Shown here: piece by piece, positions 26,367 to 35,428 of the stretch
How positions within the stretch are numbered: the first letter of the stretch is position 1
Layout of the letters: the number at the start of each line of letters is the position of its first letter
Assembly: GCA_030054115.1 (NCBI GenBank)
Contig: JASGCL010000001.1
Coordinates: 112,788-152,443 of the forward strand
Source of the DNA: Hydrotalea sp.
GTDB taxonomy: Bacteria; Pseudomonadota; Alphaproteobacteria; JASGCL01
DNA length: 39,656 bases
Reading direction: 5' to 3'
The notes under the pieces: model-generated
What the model was told of the DNA's origin: nothing
Seen by the model: the letters and a program-made list of their open reading frames with translations, nothing else
Databases searched by the model: none
Position numbers and translations under genes: made by a program

Positions 26367-27464
26367 TTACAATTTTTGCAATTCCATTATTTTAAACAAT
26401 CGCCCCATGTCGGTCGGTTGTTGTTTTTTTATCAATCGTTGATAACCATGGTCGATTTCATTTTTATCATAACCCAGGGCGATTAATTTTGCCGCGATTT
26501 TATCACCATGAAGTTGTTGCAAAAAATTGGCCTGGCTGTCGAAATAGATTTTTTTTAATTGCAATGGCTTCGCGGCATTTTCAATTTGATGAAAACTGAC
26601 CGACGCCGAAATATCCGCCGCCCCCAAATGCGTCAGCGGGTCAACCGGTTGATGACGATAGAGGGCTTGCATGTTGTCACCATCATAGACGCCATCGTTG
26701 CCATAATCAATAATAGTGATAACCCCGCCGGGCTTCAACACCCGCGCCACCGCGGTTAATATATCGTTATAGGCCGGGTGCGATTCATAAATGACATTTT
26801 CCTTTACCGATTGGTGCGGCGTCAGGGTGGCGGGAAGGTCGCCATCATAAGGCTTAAAAGCAAAACAAAAATTATCGGGTGCATCATGCGTATTATCGAT
26901 TGTTACCACCCGTTCAACCCATTTTTTATTTTTTAACATGAATTGCCGTGGCAGAAGACAATCAAAAAATTCATTGGCAACAATAAAATCAACCGACGCG
27001 GTTTCAACATCGCGCAAGGATTCGCGCCAATTTATATATTGTGCGTGGCGTTGCAGGTATTTTTTTTGCACGGCGGCCAAGGATTCGCTTCGTTCGATAA
27101 TGGTCACCGCAAGCCCCTGCAAAAAATCGCGCGGCGCATGGTTTAACATGTCGCGCATCATGGTGCCACGGCCGGCCCCCAATTCTAACAGGCAAAAATC
27201 GTCGTTGGTTTTTTGTGCATTAATACGCAACGCCAGCAGAACACCAAACACCGGCGAGACATCGGGGCTGGTAATGAAATCGCCCGCCGCACCAAAAACC
27301 TTTTCATGGCCGTAATAATATTCCAGCAAGGGCGAAAAAAAAACATCAAGCGACAACCCGTTATGTTCTTTTATCGCGCGGGCAAGGTTTTTTTTTATGT
27401 CGGGCAAGGTTGTGGCTTGCAATCTTATATCTCCCAAAAAATCATTTTTTTTCGCGCAACACAT
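26367..27464 (-). CDS. MidA/NDUFAF7-type SAM-dependent methyltransferase (COG1565)
   Basis: 365 residues. Family features: ITSPDVSPVFGVLLA, the SAM motif LLELGAGRGTMMRDML, NEFFDCLLPRQF, VITIIDYGNDG and an HVDFT-like stretch degenerated to LGAADISASVSF. The mitochondrial homologue NDUFAF7 methylates an arginine of a complex I subunit. Bacterial members are believed to act similarly, which fits an organism with cytochrome-based respiration; this is inference. The first codons (MCCAKKNDFLG) overlap the cobM 3' end by 23 nt. Internal starts are far away, so overlap and coupling with cobM look real. Confidence 0.86.
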   Translation of the reverse strand: MCCAKKNDFLGDIRLQATTLPDIKKNLARAIKEHNGLSLDVFFSPLLEYYYGHEKVFGAAGDFITSPDVSPVFGVLLALRINAQKTNDDFCLLELGAGRGTMMRDMLNHAPRDFLQGLAVTIIERSESLAAVQKKYLQRHAQYINWRESLRDVETASVDFIVANEFFDCLLPRQFMLKNKKWVERVVTIDNTHDAPDNFCFAFKPYDGDLPATLTPHQSVKENVIYESHPAYNDILTAVARVLKPGGVITIIDYGNDGVYDGDNMQALYRHQPVDPLTHLGAADISASVSFHQIENAAKPLQLKKIYFDSQANFLQQLHGDKIAAKLIALGYDKNEIDHGYQRLIKKQQPTDMGRLFKIMELQKL

Positions 27465-28200
27465 GGCTGTGGTCTTTGTGATAAAGGTGCGAATCAGAAA
27501 AATCCTCGCTCCCCAACACCCGCCCCACCAAAATCAGCGCGGTGCGGGTGATGTTTTCTTTTTTTACCTTGTCGCGAATATCCTGCAACGTGCCGGTGAT
27601 AATTTTTTGGTCGGGCCAGGTGGCGCGGTAAACCACCGCCACCGGGCAATCCGCGCCGTAATTCGGCGTCAAATCCTTCACCACCTTGGCCAGGTTGTTT
27701 ATCGATAAATGAATCGCCAGGGTCGCACCGCTTTTGCCCAAGGTTACTAAATCCTCGTTCGCCGGCATGCTGGATGCGCGCACCGCGGTGCGGGTCAGGA
27801 TAATTGTCTGCGAAACATCGGCCAGGGTTAATTCCTTTTGCAACAATGCCGCCGCCGCGGCATAGGCCGGCACCCCCGGGCAAATATCATAATCAATACC
27901 CAATTTATCGAGGGCGCGCATTTGTTCGGCAATCGCACCATAAAGCGACGGATCGCCCGAATGAACCCGCGCCACCGATTTTTTTTCCTCATGCGCCCGT
28001 TGCATGACGGCGATTATTTCTTCCAACACCATGGCGGCGGTATCCATCACCAATGCCCCTTGCGGGGCGGTGGCGATAACCTCGGCCGGCACCAACGACC
28101 CGGCGTAAAGGCACACCGGGCATTCGGCAATCAATTTCGCACCGCGCAGGGTGATTAAATCGGGCGCGCCCGGACCGGCGCCAATAAAATGTATCGTCAT
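27442..28200 (-). CDS. cobM: Precorrin-4 C11-methyltransferase (CobM/CbiF)
   Basis: 252 residues. Tetrapyrrole methylase fold: VHFIGAGPGAPDLITLRGAKLI-type start, LYAGSLVP, HSGDPSLYGAIAEQM, CPGVPAYAAAAALLQKELTLADVSQTIILTR and YRATWPDQKIITGTL, all diagnostic of CobM/CbiF. It adds the methyl group at C11 of (cobalt-)precorrin-4 in cobalamin synthesis. It is placed on the strand opposite the other five corrin genes. Its ATG overlaps the stop of the O-antigen-ligase-like gene (ATGA) and its end overlaps midA. With CbiX and CbiG nearby the substrate is probably cobalt-precorrin-4. The extra 20 C-terminal residues (SHLYHKDHSHVLREKK) are histidine-rich. Confidence 0.95.
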   Translation of the reverse strand: MTIHFIGAGPGAPDLITLRGAKLIAECPVCLYAGSLVPAEVIATAPQGALVMDTAAMVLEEIIAVMQRAHEEKKSVARVHSGDPSLYGAIAEQMRALDKLGIDYDICPGVPAYAAAAALLQKELTLADVSQTIILTRTAVRASSMPANEDLVTLGKSGATLAIHLSINNLAKVVKDLTPNYGADCPVAVVYRATWPDQKIITGTLQDIRDKVKKENITRTALILVGRVLGSEDFSDSHLYHKDHSHVLREKK

Positions 28201-29675
28201 GATTTTTTATTTTTCGCGGTTTGGCTTAACAACAACAACATGCCCATCACCATCATATACATCTGCCAAAAGGCATAAAAGGAATTGGTGATAATAAAAC
28301 AAAAAACGCAGGCCGTAAAAAAAGTGAAGGCGGCACGCGCCGACGGGTGATTGTTGTGCTGAACCAACAATTGCCACCAACCACGGGCAAAAAAAGCAAA
28401 CAGCAATAGCGGCGCCAGTAGGCCGGCATCGAGCAAAATTTCTATCCAAATATAATGCGGTTGGTTTAGCGCTTCGCAGAAGCCATTGATTAAAAAACAT
28501 TCACCGGCGATGGCGTGATAAGGCACGCCAAGAATATTTGTGCTGAAATCGCTGGTCAAGGTCAGTAGGTAACGATTGATGTTGATGCCGTAACCGACAA
28601 ATGGGTGTTGAAAAATATAATAATCTATAAAATGCCAGAATTTTAAACGCTCCTTCATCGAATTGCCATCGAAGCCCAATGATTTTAAAAAATGCAACAA
28701 TGGATGATTATAGGGATCGCTGGTGTCGTATATCACGCCGCTTAGCCACAGGCCGACAATATATAAAAAATAAACCATGACCAGCGCGCCCCACAACATA
28801 ATGCGACGATTGCGCGACAGGGTTATCAATCGCGGTATCAGTAAATAAATCGCCACGCCAATCACCATCGCAAGGGTCCAGGCGCGCGACACGGTATAGC
28901 CAACCACCACACCACCTATCGTCGTCATCCGCAGGTGAAGCAACAGCACCAACGGCAGGCAAAGCCACGCCATGCCATTTTTTTTAAACAACAATGGTAA
29001 TATCAATAAAAATAAAATGGCGGCGTTTTGCGAATACTGGCTACTACGGAGGCCTTGCCGTTCGCCATTATTTATCAGTTGCAATTCGACCAGCACAACA
29101 ATCGTCAGCATCACCAGCACCGCGACCAGCATCAGCAAATCCAACGTCACATCGCGCGCCACCGGTTTGTTTTTAAAAAACCACAACAATGACGGCACGA
29201 TAGCCGCCAATAACAATGTGCGCCCCAACACAAACCAGCCGTGATAAAAAATTGCCTGGCGATAATCAGCCGCCGGCATTATCGTGTTATGCGCCAAACC
29301 CCAAAATAACGAAAAGCCAAACACCGCCACCAGGGCATAGAGCAACAAATAAAGCGGCGACGAAAATTGTTGCAAAATATTTTTTTTGTCGCGCGCGCTG
29401 TAAGGGTAAAACAACAACAGCGGCACCAACAACAGCCCGACCAGCACACCGCGTTCCTTCAACATAATCGCCAGCGAAAAGGATAAGGCGGTAACCACGG
29501 CAATCGCCTTATCTTGCCACAAGATATTTTTTGCCGTAAAAAATTTTTTTATCTGGCCCAGGGACGACGATAACGACGTGACCAATTTAATGGTTGCGGG
29601 CGTCATGGTTAAGGGGGATGAAAGGGCGCGTTTCATGGCGACTATCGCTCTACCAATTTTGCCTTGCCTTGTCAT
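28197..29675 (-). CDS. O-antigen ligase / Wzy-like polysaccharide membrane protein
   Basis: 492 residues from ATG 29675 (MTRQGKIGRA). The frame remains open to 29969, but that part lies antisense to cbiX and reads as an artefact. About eleven membrane helices with one large periplasmic loop (roughly SDPYNHPLLHFLKSLGFDGNSMKERLKFW...). HPFVGYGININRYL followed by HAIAGECFLINGFCEALNQPHYIWIEILLDAGLLAPLLL is the Wzy_C/O-antigen ligase pattern (HN.yl..l.e.GllG in other members). Such proteins join polysaccharide to lipid A or polymerise repeat units. The ATGA overlap with cobM implies co-translation with an unrelated pathway gene. Ligase versus polymerase cannot be decided by eye. Confidence 0.78.
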   Translation of the reverse strand: MTRQGKIGRAIVAMKRALSSPLTMTPATIKLVTSLSSSLGQIKKFFTAKNILWQDKAIAVVTALSFSLAIMLKERGVLVGLLLVPLLLFYPYSARDKKNILQQFSSPLYLLLYALVAVFGFSLFWGLAHNTIMPAADYRQAIFYHGWFVLGRTLLLAAIVPSLLWFFKNKPVARDVTLDLLMLVAVLVMLTIVVLVELQLINNGERQGLRSSQYSQNAAILFLLILPLLFKKNGMAWLCLPLVLLLHLRMTTIGGVVVGYTVSRAWTLAMVIGVAIYLLIPRLITLSRNRRIMLWGALVMVYFLYIVGLWLSGVIYDTSDPYNHPLLHFLKSLGFDGNSMKERLKFWHFIDYYIFQHPFVGYGININRYLLTLTSDFSTNILGVPYHAIAGECFLINGFCEALNQPHYIWIEILLDAGLLAPLLLFAFFARGWWQLLVQHNNHPSARAAFTFFTACVFCFIITNSFYAFWQMYMMVMGMLLLLSQTAKNKKS

Positions 29676-29710
29676 GGGTTTTTTATTATGGTTGGATTTA
29701 TAAGAACCCA

Positions 29711-29753
29711 ATTTTTTTATCGAATCTGGCGTCGTTGCCTCGATAAAAAAAAT
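29711..29753. promoter_or_regulatory. Long inverted repeat in the divergent B12 control region
   Basis: Left arm 29711-29723 (A, seven T, ATCGA) and right arm 29740-29753 (TCGATA then A-run and T) are reverse complements over at least 12 bp around a 16-nt centre. It lies in the 105-bp region between divergent cbiX and the ligase-like gene and could be an operator for both, or an RNA hairpin in the cbiX leader. An AGGA site lies 9-12 nt before the cbiX ATG. Confidence 0.5.
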
Positions 29754-29780
29754 CACACGGGGCAAATAGGAAGATAAAAC

Positions 29781-30980
29781 ATGACCAGCCACCAGCCCAC
29801 CGATAGCCATGTCGATAACCACGTCGATAACCATGCCGACCACGATGGCGCGCATAATGGCGCGCGCGAACCATTGCGCCCCCTGCCCGCTGATACCGCC
29901 ATTATGATATTGGGGCATGGCAGTCGTTCCGCATCGGCGATTGCCGAATTTTCCAACATGACGGCACAATTAAAAAAACGCTACGCCCCGACGCCGGTTG
30001 AATATGGTTTTTTGGAATTCGCAACGCCGATTATTCGCGATGGGTTGGATGTATTACGCGCCAACGGCGCGAAGCGTATTTTGGCGGTGCCGGCATTGTT
30101 GTTTGCCGCCGGCCACGCCAAAAACGATATGCCGTCGGTGGTTAATAAATACCAACAAGACCACCCCGATATGGTTATTAATTATGGCCGCGAGTTGGCG
30201 ATTGACCCCCGGTTGTTGAAGGCGGCATCGGAATCGATTCACGCCATCTTGCCCAAATTTTCATCACCCGAGGAAAAGAAAAAATACCTGGCCGATAGCT
30301 TGTTGGTGGTGGTGGGGCGTGGCACGTCGGACCCTGACGCCAATTCGAATATATCAAAGGTCATGCGTTTCCTGTGGGAGGGATTGGGTTTCGGTTGGGG
30401 CGAGGTTGCCTATTCCGGCGTTACCTTCCCCTTGGTGGCACCGGCGTTGGATAAAATTGCCGGCTTGCAATATCGGCGCATCGTCGTCTTCCCCTATTTT
30501 TTATTTTCGGGCATCTTGGTCGATAGAATTTATGAAGCGGTTGACGCGGCGCAGGAAAAATTTCCAGCAATTCAATTTTTAAAGGCGCCTTACCTCAATG
30601 ATAACCCACGGGTGCTGGATACCATCACCAGCCGCATCAACGAAATTATCGACGGCATGGGCTTGATGAATTGCCAATTATGCAAATACCGCCAGCAGGT
30701 ATTGGGTTTCGAGGACGAGGTTGGGCTGAAGCAAGAAAGCCACCACCACCATGTCGAGGGCATCGGGGTAAATGGCAAGGACGCGACCCCTGCACCCCAC
30801 GACCACGGCCATCATGAGCATGAACATCACGGCCACGAACATGGTCATCACGAGCACGGCCATCATGAGCATGAACATCACGGCCACGAGCATGGTCATG
30901 CGCACGGCGACCATGGCCACCATCCCTATCCCTTCGCCGACCACCCGTTGGGGCCGAAAACCTTGCGGCCCAAAAAATAA
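29781..30980 (+). CDS. cbiX: Sirohydrochlorin cobaltochelatase CbiX, long form with Fe-S motif and His-rich tail
   Basis: 399 residues. It inserts cobalt into sirohydrochlorin, the entry step of cobalt-early B12 synthesis. The first chelatase half has ILGHGSRS (His46) and GHAKNDMP (His112), the metal-site histidines. The second half has the usual degenerate VGRGTSDPDANS. A MxCxxC motif (Met296, Cys298, Cys301) is the Fe-S signature known from Bacillus megaterium CbiX(L), also followed by a His-rich tail. Residues 340-381 are about half histidine, encoded by a 51-bp repeat. The N-terminus (SHVDNHVDNHADHDGAHNGA) is a further His/Asp-rich stretch. First gene of the operon; cbiC starts 4 nt after its stop. 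Confidence 0.93.
   Translation: MTSHQPTDSHVDNHVDNHADHDGAHNGAREPLRPLPADTAIMILGHGSRSASAIAEFSNMTAQLKKRYAPTPVEYGFLEFATPIIRDGLDVLRANGAKRILAVPALLFAAGHAKNDMPSVVNKYQQDHPDMVINYGRELAIDPRLLKAASESIHAILPKFSSPEEKKKYLADSLLVVVGRGTSDPDANSNISKVMRFLWEGLGFGWGEVAYSGVTFPLVAPALDKIAGLQYRRIVVFPYFLFSGILVDRIYEAVDAAQEKFPAIQFLKAPYLNDNPRVLDTITSRINEIIDGMGLMNCQLCKYRQQVLGFEDEVGLKQESHHHHVEGIGVNGKDATPAPHDHGHHEHEHHGHEHGHHEHGHHEHEHHGHEHGHAHGDHGHHPYPFADHPLGPKTLRPKK
30804..30899 (+). repeat. 51-bp direct repeat encoding the CbiX histidine-rich tail
   Basis: Two 45-nt copies (30804-30848 and 30855-30899) differ at one base and are offset by 51 nt, exactly 17 codons, so the repeat keeps frame. Each encodes a block of the type HGHHEHEHHGHEHGH. 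Shorter variants of cat-ga/c-cac continue on both sides. Confidence 0.88.
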
Positions 30981-30984
30981 AAAA

Positions 30985-31644
30985 ATGTTCCAAGATTTTT
31001 TTACCGACGGGGCAGAAATCTATCGCCAATCGGCCAAACGAATCGCCGCCGCCATCGATATAACCAAATGGCCGGTGCCGTTGGAACGGTTGGTGGTGGA
31101 ACGCGTCGTCCATGCGGTGGCCGACCCAACCATCGCCGATTTATTATTTTTTAAAAAAAATGCCGCGGCGACCATTGCCACGGCATTAGAAAAAAACGCA
31201 ACCATTTTATGCGACAGCCAAATGACCAGCCATGGTTTAATAACTGGCTTAATAAATTGCCGCAACGAAAAAATATCATTGGTCGATGACCCACGGGTAA
31301 AAAAAATTGCGGACAAAAAAAAAATCACGCGGTCGCACGCACAAATTTTTCTGTGGCACGAATTGTTGCGCGACCAATTTACCACGGCGGTGGTCGTGAT
31401 TGGTAATGCGCCAACCTGCCTTTATGGTTTGTTGCAGGGCTGGCACGACGGCACCCTGCCTCAACCGGCCGGCCTTATCGCCATGCCGGTTGGCTTCGTC
31501 GGCGCGGCCGAGGCGAAACAGGCGTTAAAAAATACCGGCGACACCCCACCCTTCATCACCATCCTTGGCCCGCGCGGCGGCAGTGCCGTGGCGGCGGCGG
31601 CCACCAACGCCCTGCTAAGCCAGCGATCCATCGGCGAGGTGTAA
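30985..31644 (+). CDS. cbiC: Precorrin-8X methylmutase (CbiC/CobH)
   Basis: 219 residues from ATG 30985 (MFQDFFTDGAEIY). The frame is open back to 30772, but that part is the His-repeat of cbiX in another frame. It moves the methyl group from C11 to C12 to give (cobalt-)hydrogenobyrinate. His43, in VERVVHAVADP, coincides with the catalytic His43 of Pseudomonas denitrificans CobH. ILCDSQMTSHGL, PTCLYGLLQGWHDGTLPQPAGLIAMPVGFVGAAEAKQAL and ILGPRGGSAVAAAATNALL are family-specific. A run of ten A (31315-31324) lies inside the gene. It has 4-nt spacings to both neighbours, indicating tight coupling. I use the Cbi name because of the cobalt-early context. Confidence 0.95.
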   Translation: MFQDFFTDGAEIYRQSAKRIAAAIDITKWPVPLERLVVERVVHAVADPTIADLLFFKKNAAATIATALEKNATILCDSQMTSHGLITGLINCRNEKISLVDDPRVKKIADKKKITRSHAQIFLWHELLRDQFTTAVVVIGNAPTCLYGLLQGWHDGTLPQPAGLIAMPVGFVGAAEAKQALKNTGDTPPFITILGPRGGSAVAAAATNALLSQRSIGEV

Positions 31645-31648
31645 CAAC

Positions 31649-32929
31649 ATGACAGACAAAAAAAAATGGTTGCTGGTATTGGGGTTGCGCGCCGGTTATG
31701 ACATTCCGGCGGCGGCCAAAAATTTCTTGCGCAATGCCGATACGGTTATCGGCGGTGCGCGTAACCTTAGTCTCATCCCCTCGCTGACGCCATCCACGAT
31801 AAAACCATTAATGCGGCCATTTGCCAAAAACATAGATTGGCTAAAAAAAATGAAATCGCAGGGCAAAAAAATTGCCTTTGTCGCCACCGGTGACCCAAGT
31901 TTTTTTGGCGCGGCAAAAATATTACGCCAACACTTTAATTATGATGAAATGTTGGTCGTGCCGGCGGTGTCCGTCGTTTCCTTGGTGGCGGCGGCCATGG
32001 GCTGGGCGGTCGAGGATGCGATAATTATTTCAACCCACGGCGATGCCGCGACCCGACCGATTGAACAGTTGGTGAGGCATTTGCACCCCCACGTAAAAAT
32101 TATTGTCATTGCGCGCGACGCGCCGCAATTGTTGGCGATTGCCCAATTGTTACAAGAAAGAAATTTTGGCGACAGCCGCCTGACCATTTTTTCCAACCTC
32201 GGGGGCGATGATAAAAAAACGATTCGGCTTAAGGCCTCGGCCATAAAAACAGCGCGGCCATTTGAAATGGATTTTTACACCATAGCTATCGAAGCCATCG
32301 CCGACAAAAATACCAACGCGCCACAGGTCATGACAACCGCCGGCCACGAGATAGATTTTTTTCACCACGACGGGCAAATTACCAAACCCGAAACCCGCGC
32401 TATTATTTTATCCAAACTGCGCCCCGCGCCGCAAAAATTATTGTGGGACATTGGTGCCGGTGCCGGGTCGGTGGCGGTGGAATGGGCTTTGCGCGGCGGC
32501 CGCGCCTTGACAATCGAAACAAAAAAAAATCGCCATGATAATATCCTCAAAAATATTGCGCGGTTTGGTTTACAAAATAATATCACCGCCCTTAATATCC
32601 CCGCGCAACAATTTCTGCGTAACTACCTTGCGTCTGGGCAAAAAAAATCCCAAGCCAGCATGGCACCCGATATTATTTTTGTCGGCGGCGGCGTCAGCGA
32701 TAACGAATTGATGGCGATGGTTTGGCGCGCCCTGCCCCATGGTGGGCGGTTGGTGTCGGCCAGCCATTCGGTTGAGGGGCAGATGGCGCAACATGCGCAC
32801 CACCAAACCTGGGGCGGGGAGGTTATGACCATCAACATCGCACAAAAAAAAGCAATGACCAGTTCCGATAATTTTCACACCATGGCCGCCAACCAACAAA
32901 CCACCCTGCATGTGGTTGATAAAAAATAA
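31649..32929 (+). CDS. cbiET: Bifunctional precorrin-6Y C5,15-methyltransferase/decarboxylase CbiET (CobL)
   Basis: 426 residues, a fusion of two enzymes. Residues 1-215 are CbiE (C5-methyltransferase, tetrapyrrole methylase fold): VIGGARNL, FVATGDPSFFGAAKIL, VVPAVSVVSLVAAAMGW and IIISTHGD. The opening glycine loop is LGLRAGYD, less regular than the usual GIGxxG. Residues 245-410 are CbiT (C15-methylation and decarboxylation): TKPETRAIILSKLRPAPQKLLWDIGAGAGSVAVEWAL and PDIIFVGGG. CbiT often starts with the phrase T-K-x-E-x-R, visible at 246-250. The fused form is called CobL in the aerobic pathway. It ends one nucleotide before the cobI ATG. Confidence 0.95.
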   Translation: MTDKKKWLLVLGLRAGYDIPAAAKNFLRNADTVIGGARNLSLIPSLTPSTIKPLMRPFAKNIDWLKKMKSQGKKIAFVATGDPSFFGAAKILRQHFNYDEMLVVPAVSVVSLVAAAMGWAVEDAIIISTHGDAATRPIEQLVRHLHPHVKIIVIARDAPQLLAIAQLLQERNFGDSRLTIFSNLGGDDKKTIRLKASAIKTARPFEMDFYTIAIEAIADKNTNAPQVMTTAGHEIDFFHHDGQITKPETRAIILSKLRPAPQKLLWDIGAGAGSVAVEWALRGGRALTIETKKNRHDNILKNIARFGLQNNITALNIPAQQFLRNYLASGQKKSQASMAPDIIFVGGGVSDNELMAMVWRALPHGGRLVSASHSVEGQMAQHAHHQTWGGEVMTINIAQKKAMTSSDNFHTMAANQQTTLHVVDKK

Positions 32930-32930
32930 C

Positions 32931-33653
32931 ATGACAAAAAAATCACTTGGCATTTGTTACGGCGTCGGGGTTGGCCCGGGGGGCGTGGATAACCTCACCC
33001 TTGGCGCGATAAAAATTATTGAAAAAATAAATGTCATGGTGGCGATGCGCGCCAGCGACAAGGAATCGCGTGCCAAAAAAATCATCGCACCATTTATTAC
33101 CGGCCGCGATAATTTACACATCATCGATTACCCATTGGTGATGGCGCCACGCCGCGCCAGCAACCTTGACGCCTACCGCGGGCTTATCCCCCTCATCACC
33201 GCGCAACTTGATGGCGGGCAAGATGTCGCCGTGCTGTGCGAGGGCGACCCATTGTTCTACGGCTCGTTTCAATATGTGATGGAGCTGTTGCCGGCGCAAT
33301 ATACGCGCCGCGTGGTGCCCGGCGTATCATCGCCGCAATTGGCATCGGCCGAGGCGCGCATTGGATTATCGGCCGGCACCGATAATCTTTGCTTCATCGC
33401 CGCCACAAGTAGCGAGGAGAAAATAAAAAACCTCCTCACAACCAGCGACCGCGCCGTCATTATGAAGCTGGGGCGGAGCCTGACAAAAATAAAAAATATC
33501 TTGCGCGCTCTTGGCCTGGAAAAGGATTCGTTGCTCTGCCTTGAGCTTGGTGGGGCGGCGCAAAAAATTATCCCATTGCAGGATTACCCCGAATCCACCG
33601 CGCCCTATTTCTCACTGCTTATCGTCAATAAAAAATCCGGCCAAACAACATGA
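32931..33653 (+). CDS. cobI: Precorrin-2 C20-methyltransferase (CobI/CbiL)
   Basis: 240 residues from ATG 32931, which directly follows the cbiET stop; an ATG at 32910 inside cbiET is less likely. Tetrapyrrole methylase fold: YGVGVGPGGVDNLTLGAIKIIEKINVMVA, LCEGDPLFYGSFQYV, VVPGVSSPQLASAEARIGL and IMKLGRSLTKIKNILRALGL. These are the signatures of the C20-methylating enzyme. It makes (cobalt-)precorrin-3 from (cobalt-)precorrin-2. The stop overlaps the next start as ATGA. Whether the natural substrate already carries cobalt (CbiL) cannot be told from sequence; CbiX upstream suggests so. Confidence 0.94.
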   Translation: MTKKSLGICYGVGVGPGGVDNLTLGAIKIIEKINVMVAMRASDKESRAKKIIAPFITGRDNLHIIDYPLVMAPRRASNLDAYRGLIPLITAQLDGGQDVAVLCEGDPLFYGSFQYVMELLPAQYTRRVVPGVSSPQLASAEARIGLSAGTDNLCFIAATSSEEKIKNLLTTSDRAVIMKLGRSLTKIKNILRALGLEKDSLLCLELGGAAQKIIPLQDYPESTAPYFSLLIVNKKSGQTT

Positions 33654-35428
33654 CGCAACAACCGCAACCATTTTATTTGCTGGTGGGCCGCGCCGCGCAC
33701 CTCCCCCTGGCACAAAAGATAAAAAATAATTTTGCCGTGACAATTTATGGTGAAGGGGACGATGATTTCACACCGCTTATCAATCATTCGCTTATCGATA
33801 CCCTGCGCTATCTTTATCAATCGGGCATGGCGGACGGCATGGGGGACGCAAAACGCCCAGCAAGGCCGATAGTTGCCCTGGTCAATGGCGGCATCATCAT
33901 GCGCGCGCTTGGCAACATGGTTGGCAACAATGGAAAGGATAAATTTTCCGCATCGCCGATTTTGTATTTGACCAGCGATAACAAAACGCTGGTGCCACTC
34001 CTCGGCGAGCATCACGGCGGGCAAGGCTTGGGGATGTTGCTGGCAAAAAAATTATCGCTGAATTATGCGGGTGATGAAGCACAACATGAGGACGATGTTC
34101 CCCATCATTATTTTATGGCGGGTAAGGAATTTTTGCCGGCGTGGCTGGCGGCCAATAAAAAAATTAACACCGATTGGCACATGCCGTCGCACGGCCAACC
34201 GCAAATTATTCCACCGCGTTTGGCGGTGGGCATTGGCCTGGAGCGCGGCGCGCCGGTGGCGGCGGTGGCGGATTTGCTGACCACGGCGTTGCAAAAAATT
34301 AACGCCCACCCACGGGCGGTTGCGACCATCGCCAGCATCGATATAAAAATGGATGAGGTCGCCCTGCATAACCTGAGCTCAAACCTGCATCTACCTTTAC
34401 GTTTTTTTACCAGCGAAGAATTATCGGCGGTGCCGGTGCCGAACCCATCGGCGGTGGTTGAAAAGGAAACCGGCACGCCATCGGTGGCGGAGGCCGCCGC
34501 CTTGCGTGCCGCCGGTTATTATCCATCGCCTGAAACCCATTCGGCAAAACCCCAACCAAAGCTGTTGCTGGAAAAGCAAAAGGGCGACGGCGTGACCATC
34601 GCCATCAGCGAAATACTTCCCGACCATGATTTTACCTCATGCGGTTTAACGCTTGGCCATTTGGCGGTGGTCGGCATCGGCCCGGGCGACAAACATTTGC
34701 GCGCGCCGCTGGCCAGCCACTATATTTTGGCGGCTGATGATATTGTTGGTTATCAGCTTTACCTTGACCTGGTGGATGACCTGACCGCTGGCAAAAATTT
34801 GCACCAGCGAGATTTAGGGCGGGAGGAAGAACGCGCCGCCCTTGCCCTTGACCTCGCCCTCACCGGAAAAAAAGTTGTCTTGCTTGCCTCGGGTGATGCC
34901 GGCATCTACGCCCTTGCCACCCTGGTGTGGCAATTGTTGGAGACGCGAAAAAAACAGGTTGCGGATAAAGCCTTGCCACACAAAAAATTATCCAGCTTGC
35001 CGATAACCGTGGTGCCGGGGGTCAGCGCGTTCCAAGCCTTGGCGGCGAAACTTGGTGCGCCGGCCGGTAATGATTTTGCCGTGATATCGCTTTCCGATTT
35101 AATGACACCGCGCGCAAAAATATTACAACGATTGCGCGGCGCGTTGCAGGGCGACTTCCCCATCTTTCTTTACAACCCAAAAAGCAAAACGCGGGTTGAT
35201 TTATTGGCCGAGGTTATAACCCTCGCCCGTGAATTTTTACCACCTGACACCGCGGTTGTAATCGGCAAAAATCTTTATCGGCCGAGCGAAGACATCATTG
35301 TCCGCGATCTTAAGAATTTTTCAATCGATGATGTCGATATGTTTTCGTGCGTCATGATTAGCAACAGCACGATGCGCCAATTCAATCACCTGGGGCGCGC
35401 TATCCTTTACGCGCCGCGCGGTTATTAG
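33650..35428 (+). CDS. CbiG-CobJ fusion: cobalt-precorrin-5A hydrolase / precorrin-3B C17-methyltransferase
   Basis: 592 residues. Residues 1-140 match CbiG N-domain (IVALVNGGIIMRALGNM; LVPLLGEHHGGQGLGMLLAKKL). Residues 190-320 match CbiG C-domain/CobE (LAVGIGLERGAPVAAVADLL, ATIASIDIKMDEVALHNLSSNLHLPLRFF, PNPSAVVEKETGTPSVAEAAAL). Residues 338-592 are CobJ/CbiH (AVVGIGPGDKHLRAPLA, LASGDAGIYALATLV, VVPGVSAFQALAAKLGAP, ISLSDLMTPRAKILQRLR, YNPKSKTR, VIGKNLYRPSEDI). CobJ performs ring contraction and C17 methylation; CbiG opens the resulting lactone in the cobalt-early route. The CbiG middle domain is short here. Last gene of the operon; its 3' end overlaps the convergent ELM1-like gene by 29 nt. 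Confidence 0.93.
   Translation: MTQQPQPFYLLVGRAAHLPLAQKIKNNFAVTIYGEGDDDFTPLINHSLIDTLRYLYQSGMADGMGDAKRPARPIVALVNGGIIMRALGNMVGNNGKDKFSASPILYLTSDNKTLVPLLGEHHGGQGLGMLLAKKLSLNYAGDEAQHEDDVPHHYFMAGKEFLPAWLAANKKINTDWHMPSHGQPQIIPPRLAVGIGLERGAPVAAVADLLTTALQKINAHPRAVATIASIDIKMDEVALHNLSSNLHLPLRFFTSEELSAVPVPNPSAVVEKETGTPSVAEAAALRAAGYYPSPETHSAKPQPKLLLEKQKGDGVTIAISEILPDHDFTSCGLTLGHLAVVGIGPGDKHLRAPLASHYILAADDIVGYQLYLDLVDDLTAGKNLHQRDLGREEERAALALDLALTGKKVVLLASGDAGIYALATLVWQLLETRKKQVADKALPHKKLSSLPITVVPGVSAFQALAAKLGAPAGNDFAVISLSDLMTPRAKILQRLRGALQGDFPIFLYNPKSKTRVDLLAEVITLAREFLPPDTAVVIGKNLYRPSEDIIVRDLKNFSIDDVDMFSCVMISNSTMRQFNHLGRAILYAPRGY

Follow-up and report, generated by a model that had tools for sequence, protein, structure and literature searches.

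Corrin-ring operon and its CbiX chelatase

We analysed a vitamin B12 (cobalamin) operon in a 39,656-nt stretch, hereafter the window, of contig JASGCL010000001.1 from the alphaproteobacterium listed as Hydrotalea sp. (assembly GCA_030054115.1). The operon begins with cbiX, which encodes a putative sirohydrochlorin cobaltochelatase, and continues with cbiC, cbiET, cobI, and a fusion of cbiG and cobJ. The five genes are consecutive on the plus strand, with short overlaps or no more than 4 bases between neighbours, and domain profiles confirmed their identities and the coordinates that the initial annotation had given them (Table 1). The G+C content across the window is uniform (0.46–0.54), and no cobalamin riboswitch was found before the operon, even with a lax threshold.

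Table 1. Coordinates of the B12 genes and motifs discussed in the text. Positions are those of the window unless preceded by a contig number of the same genome (C4, C10).
Feature	Position	Strand	Evidence
cbiX-L, predicted two-domain sirohydrochlorin cobaltochelatase, 399 aa	29781..30980	+	Pfam CbiX 167.8 bits, two stretches
His46 codon in GHGSR, catalytic histidine 1, N-terminal domain	29916..29918	+	alignment column invariant
His112 codon in GHAKND, catalytic histidine 2	30114..30116	+	alignment column invariant
MNCQLC, MxCxxC 4Fe-4S motif, residues 296-301	30666..30683	+	alignment
His-rich C-terminal tail of CbiX	30741..30950	+	alignment
cbiC/cobH, (cobalt-)precorrin-8 methylmutase, 219 aa	30985..31644	+	Pfam CbiC 179.1 bits
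cbiET/cobL, fused C5,C15-methyltransferase and decarboxylase, 426 aa	31649..32929	+	TIGR02467 116.6 bits and TIGR02469 90.9 bits, both above equivalog cut-off
cobI/cbiL, C20-methyltransferase, 247 aa	32910..33653	+	TIGR01467 159.5 bits (cut-off 163.25)
CbiG-CobJ fusion, 592 aa	33650..35428	+	
CbiG part of fusion, N and C domains	33650..34624	+	Pfam CbiG_C 118.3 bits, CbiG_N 23.3 bits
CobJ/CbiH part of fusion, C17-methyltransferase and ring contractase	34640..35428	+	TIGR01466 230.9 bits (cut-off 246)
cobM/cbiF, C11-methyltransferase, 252 aa	27442..28200	-	TIGR01465 328.4 bits (cut-off 259.65)
cbiD	C4:9667-10494		TIGR00312 283 bits, above cut-off
CobN, 1281 aa	C10:15323-19168		TIGR02257 1177 bits (cut-off 822)

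The CbiX protein comprises two CbiX domains, and the alignment showed that it carries the His46/His112 pair and the MxCxxC motif, as had been noted from the sequence. The catalytic histidines are kept only in the N-terminal domain; in the C-terminal domain, GRGTSDP replaces GHG. In CbiX-L of Bacillus megaterium, the catalytic His14 and His79 lie in the N domain, and the C-terminal extension contains a 4Fe-4S centre together with a region rich in histidine (PMC7689651). By position, His46 and His112 of the window protein match His14 and His79. When compared with the CbiX proteins of seven alphaproteobacterial relatives, the window protein shared 41–59% amino acid identity, the minimum being with a relative that has no Fe-S/His tail. 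From its N-terminal histidines and its Fe-S/His tail, the window CbiX is of the CbiX-L type, and cobalt insertion is its predicted function.

The CbiX protein could instead be a siroheme ferrochelatase, of the SirB or Paracoccus type, that lies in the cob operon by chance. One CbiX of alphaproteobacteria, the Paracoccus type, has its essential histidines in the C half and produces siroheme (PMC4063343), the genome encodes a siroheme-type sulfite/nitrite reductase, and the best match of the window CbiX among PDB sequences is a SirB (82.5 bits). However, the active-site histidines of the window protein are in the N half, the MxCxxC motif and His tail are present, cbiX precedes cobH in nearly all loci that we compared (see below), and a separate CysG_N protein adjoins the sulfite reductase gene. 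In the CbiX tree, the single SirB row stood outside on a long branch, and the window CbiX fell in the alphaproteobacterial CbiX group and not with SirB, a grouping that the initial annotation had named as evidence against its reading. On the position of the histidines, the tail, and the gene context, we rejected the ferrochelatase reading and consider it very unlikely.

Distribution and inheritance of the operon

The initial annotation had regarded a cobalt-early operon as unusual for an alphaproteobacterium, and had proposed that the pathway was a hybrid or had been acquired. A scan of the GTDB genomes with the CbiX alignment did not bear out the first of these views: it gave at least 545 relatives, and the best 80 of them were nearly all alphaproteobacteria by title, although this sample is biased toward that class, having been selected as the top matches to a CbiX alignment from the same class. 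We think that the few odd titles among them are misbinned or mislabelled genomes. The GHGSR and MxCxxC motifs and a His-rich tail occurred in all 80 loci, and every tail had at least eight histidines. Within the fetched DNA, which was short for some loci, we counted cbiC in 77, cbiET in 72, cobI in 69, cobM in 67, and cobJ and cbiG in 66 each, nearly always in the same order as in the window, and cobN was at the same locus in 41. CobG was found in 0 of the 80 loci, with a model that gives 554–588 at true CobG loci; CobZ was also found in 0 of 80, in a run that had no CobZ positive control. The order cbiX-cbiC-cbiET-cobI-cbiG/cobJ-cobM was common to four relatives from other families (G001, G028, G033, and G034; genomes are numbered G, the window genome being G000), and it was also seen in most of the 80 named loci, among them those of Agrobacterium vitis, Rhizobium, Devosia, and Tistrella. 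The window operon is thus the ordinary form in many alphaproteobacteria and not an oddity.

The trees agreed with the gene order. The window CbiX was inside the alphaproteobacterial group, away from most CbiX proteins of other classes, and the window CobJ grouped with the alphaproteobacterial CobJ proteins of the cbiX-type operons, although the exact positions are unsure because the window rows are on long branches. Apart from these long branches, nothing specific speaks for the acquisition of the operon from outside the alphaproteobacteria. Against it stand the placement of both proteins within alphaproteobacterial groups, a gene order shared across the class, the uniform G+C content, and the arrangement of cbiD opposite cobA and cbiA on another contig (C4), which is likewise common to relatives. 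These trees and the shared gene order indicate that the operon is the class's own and was not acquired by this organism; we rejected the acquired-operon reading as extremely improbable. In two genomes of another class (G197 and G193, loci L208 and L209), cobN directly adjoins a tailed CbiX, and these CbiX proteins also fell inside the alphaproteobacterial CbiX group, perhaps because of transfer.

In the window genome, the cluster is scattered and partly rearranged. The cobM gene lies approximately 1.6 kb upstream of cbiX on the opposite strand, whereas in relatives it directly follows cbiG-cobJ, indicating that the cob cluster has been rearranged here. Between cobM and cbiX is a membrane-protein-like open reading frame (ORF; 28197-29969, minus strand) without a Pfam or NCBIfam match, possibly encoding a protein of the O-antigen ligase type. 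The start listed for this ORF, 29969, overlaps cbiX, and the real start is thus probably further in. On the other side of cobM, a Methyltransf_28 (MidA/NDUFAF7-like) gene (26367-27464, minus strand) follows with a 23-base overlap.

B12 genes outside the window and the two operon forms

The genome (1.68 Mb in 91 contigs, 95.5% complete) was searched with targeted family profiles and in named stretches. The cbiD, cobK, cobA, cobB, and cobQ genes, for which the initial annotation had advised a search, were all present. On contig C4, cobB/cbiA and cobA share one strand, and cbiD and a cobK of divergent sequence are transcribed away from them on the other; cobQ is on C30. Six tetrapyrrole methylases were found in the genome (CobM, CobL, CobI, CobJ, CobA, and a probable RsmI on C30), none of which is CobF. 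Neither CobG nor CobZ was found genome-wide: the sole CobG match had 123 bits against a cut-off of 234.8, and the CobZ score was 21.7 bits. The CobG candidate (C12:16824-18113) was rejected, being a siroheme-type nitrite/sulfite reductase. As these absences rest on profile cut-offs in an incomplete assembly, they are strong but not absolute. The initial annotation had listed CobF, CobG, CobZ, CobN, CobS, and CobT as missing; the first three are indeed not found in the genome, but CobN, CobS, and CobT are all encoded outside the window. CobS scored 562 bits (cut-off 558.6), and CobT, directly behind it, scored 666 bits, below its cut-off of 759. Taken together as a test of the cobalt-early assignment, the search for cobG, cobF, and cobNST therefore gave a split answer. 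By its gene families, the set of CbiX-L, full CbiG, and CbiD, with no CobG, CobZ, or CobF, is that of a cobalt-early pathway, as had been proposed, with a late chelatase in addition. The pathway is thus a mixture, though in a different sense from the hybrid first suggested, because CobNST is present too.

A CysG_N-like protein (142 bits) is encoded on C12 adjoining the sulfite/nitrite reductase gene, and would supply sirohydrochlorin as a precorrin-2 dehydrogenase. At L082:7199-8326, a CysG_N-like protein of 375 aa extends at its C terminus past the CysG_N match and is beside a sulfite/nitrite reductase. The cob loci of the window genome that were searched yielded no cobalamin riboswitch, and no split MetH parts were seen in the C4 stretch beside a homocysteine methyltransferase gene. 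Two further features were noted: an apparently non-coding repeat of approximately 300–400 bases, approximately 82% identical between two contigs of the genome (L036:2090-2462 and L039:16677-17125), and exact repeats of 55-base units adjoining a tRNA gene (L038:514-815).

We then considered 41 genomes, namely the window genome and 40 relatives, each from another family. Ring-pathway genes (CbiD, or CobK in G022) were present in 13 of them, and CobN was present in all 13. Seven of the 13 had CbiX-L without CobG or CobZ (G000, G001, G016, G028, G033, G034, and G035), five had CobG or CobZ without CbiX-L (G015, G022, G026, G037, and G040), and only G007 had both, its CbiX being without the Fe-S/His tail. 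This alternation gave P = 0.005 in Fisher's test on the 13 genomes, uncorrected for kinship. The two forms also differed in their accompanying genes: in the CbiX form, a full-length CbiG was fused to CobJ, whereas the CobG/CobZ form had a free CobJ and, of CbiG, only a CobE-like protein with the C domain. Furthermore, cobN, cobG, and cbiC (cobH) were in a row in G007, G040, G022, and G026, and the CbiX form had cobN-(cobQ)-cbiX-cbiC in a row, so that cbiX and cobG take the same slot in the operon. In the CobJ tree, the CobJ proteins of the CobG/CobZ form made up one supported group nested among those of the CbiX form, a hint that within the class the CobG/CobZ form came later, although the root is not secure. 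Four of the genomes with CobG or CobZ (G015, G026, G037, and G040) also have CbiD, which may stand in for CobF in their cobalt-late pathway. In the open-access literature, with subscription surveys of B12 comparative genomics outside our reach, we found no account of CbiX and CobG alternating in alphaproteobacteria, and we do not claim that the pattern is new.

CobS was found in 29 of the 41 genomes and in the Caulobacter control, as against 16 of 41 for CobN. CobS therefore occurs in genomes without CobN and is not diagnostic alone. The CobN of the window genome was altered at 23% of near-invariant columns, compared with 0–18% for the other ten proteins compared; because the number of aligned rows differs between genes, this divergence may hint at relaxed constraint.

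Putative pathway and comparison with known systems

From the gene families and the published cobalt-early scheme (PMC7242693), the following pathway can be proposed. CobA, encoded on C4, would make precorrin-2, which the CysG_N-like protein from C12 would oxidise to sirohydrochlorin, and CbiX-L would then insert Co(II). CobI, CobJ (CbiH), CobM, CbiG, CbiD, CobK, CbiET, and CbiC would build the cobalt-corrin ring, with no use of O2 and no CobG or CobZ, and CobB and CobQ would amidate it. CobNST most likely provides a second, late entry of cobalt, into metal-free or demetallated corrins or in salvage. We consider it likely that the window carries a standard alphaproteobacterial cbiX-type corrin-ring operon, inherited in the lineage, whose cluster has been broken up in a small genome, with CobNST as this second entry. 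The identities and order of the genes, and which families the profile searches did and did not find, are observed; the reaction order, the specificity for cobalt, and what CobNST does are inferred.

Several observations weigh against this proposal. A pure cobalt-early pathway would not need CobNST. Class II chelatases show hardly any specificity of their own for a metal (PMC7689651), so the CbiX sequence cannot prove that the metal is cobalt. The window CbiG_N match (23.3 bits) is below the cut-off of 25, whereas the homologous fusions of relatives score approximately 89–91 bits. The CobK protein is divergent: its scores of 51–79 bits fall short of the NCBIfam cut-offs, although 76 bits exceeds that of Pfam. 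The steps of CbiG and CobK may therefore be altered here, although we judged the window CbiG to be full, with a CbiG_C domain and approximately 325 residues preceding CobJ; the presence of a CbiG domain, which had been noted before, is in any case upheld. Finally, a CysG_N match was found in neither of the CbiX-bearing relatives G028 and G007, and since G028 is a complete genome with the same operon and no CysG_N/SirC match, sirohydrochlorin does not come from the same source throughout.

The presence of a complete CobNST raises the alternative that the pathway is in fact cobalt-late, with CobNST as the working chelatase, metal-free intermediates, and CbiX serving siroheme or replacing CobG/CobZ at ring contraction. 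The frequent sharing of a locus by cobN and cbiX, the presence of CobN in every sampled ring-pathway genome with or without CbiX, and the position of cobG between cobN and cobH, the slot of cbiX elsewhere, all speak for this. On the other hand, the full CbiG, which acts on the lactone of the cobalt route, accompanies CbiX, and CbiG_C alone accompanies CobG/CobZ; the window CbiX has the catalytic histidines and the tail of known cobaltochelatases; and CobN, subject to the differing row numbers, is the most changed of the proteins at near-invariant columns. A cobalt-late pathway is therefore quite unlikely, and an early insertion by CbiX-L remains our preferred interpretation.

The retention of CobNST in all sampled ring-pathway genomes, frequently next to cbiX, suggests that it serves a purpose, possibly the metallation of metal-free or salvaged corrins. 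A tentative and rather unlikely extension is that CbiX and CobNST both insert metal into corrin intermediates of a single pathway, and in a stronger variant CbiX would substitute for CobG in ring contraction. If the two chelatases did share one pathway, the switch between the early and late routes would amount to little more than the exchange of cbiX and full CbiG for cobG and the CobE-like protein, while CobN and the methyltransferases would stay. The presence of either chelatase in an alphaproteobacterium does not rule out the other, which corrects a rule of thumb in annotation: because they co-occur, the chelatase by itself does not suffice to assign the B12 route. That neither cobNST nor cbiX is exclusive to one pathway has already been stated in general terms (PMC6461909). 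The contrast between CbiX with full CbiG and CobG/CobZ with CobE-like CbiG_C may be more practical as a marker pair, and this alternation opens the role of CobNST alongside CbiX to experiment in genera that can be cultured.

Among known systems, the Paracoccus-type CbiX resembles the window protein as a two-domain class II chelatase and differs in the half that bears the catalytic histidines (PMC4063343). The CobG-type cobalt-late pathway of the Pseudomonas denitrificans type has orthologues of CobN, CobS, CobT, CobH, CobI, CobJ, CobL, and CobM in common with the window genome, which, however, has CbiX, a full CbiG in place of the CobE-like protein, and no CobG, CobZ, or CobF. Haloarchaea likewise combine cobalt-early genes with a late-chelatase subunit, for which a role in salvage has been guessed (PMC8305020), but their CobN is paired with ChlID and not with CobS and CobT. 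The cobalt-early system of Bacillus megaterium (CbiX-L, SirC) is similar in the N-domain histidines approximately 65 residues apart, the 4Fe-4S centre and the His tail of CbiX (PMC7689651), and in the route through CbiG and CbiD; unlike it, the window genome has a fused CbiET, a CbiG fused to CobJ, and CobNST. The closest counterparts are the cbiX-type operons of other alphaproteobacteria, such as Tistrella mobilis (L138), Agrobacterium vitis (L148), Hoeflea halophila (L092), and Skermanella (L131). Compared with these, the window genome has cobM inverted and upstream of cbiX, and cobN, cobQ, cbiD-cobK, and cobA-cobB on other contigs; the cob loci of A. vitis and G001 also contain the riboswitch that was not found at the searched loci of the window genome. 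These operons nevertheless have the same cbiX-cbiC-cbiET-cobI-cbiG/cobJ order as the window, share with it the MxCxxC motif and His tail of CbiX and the CbiG-CobJ fusion, and have cbiD nearby.

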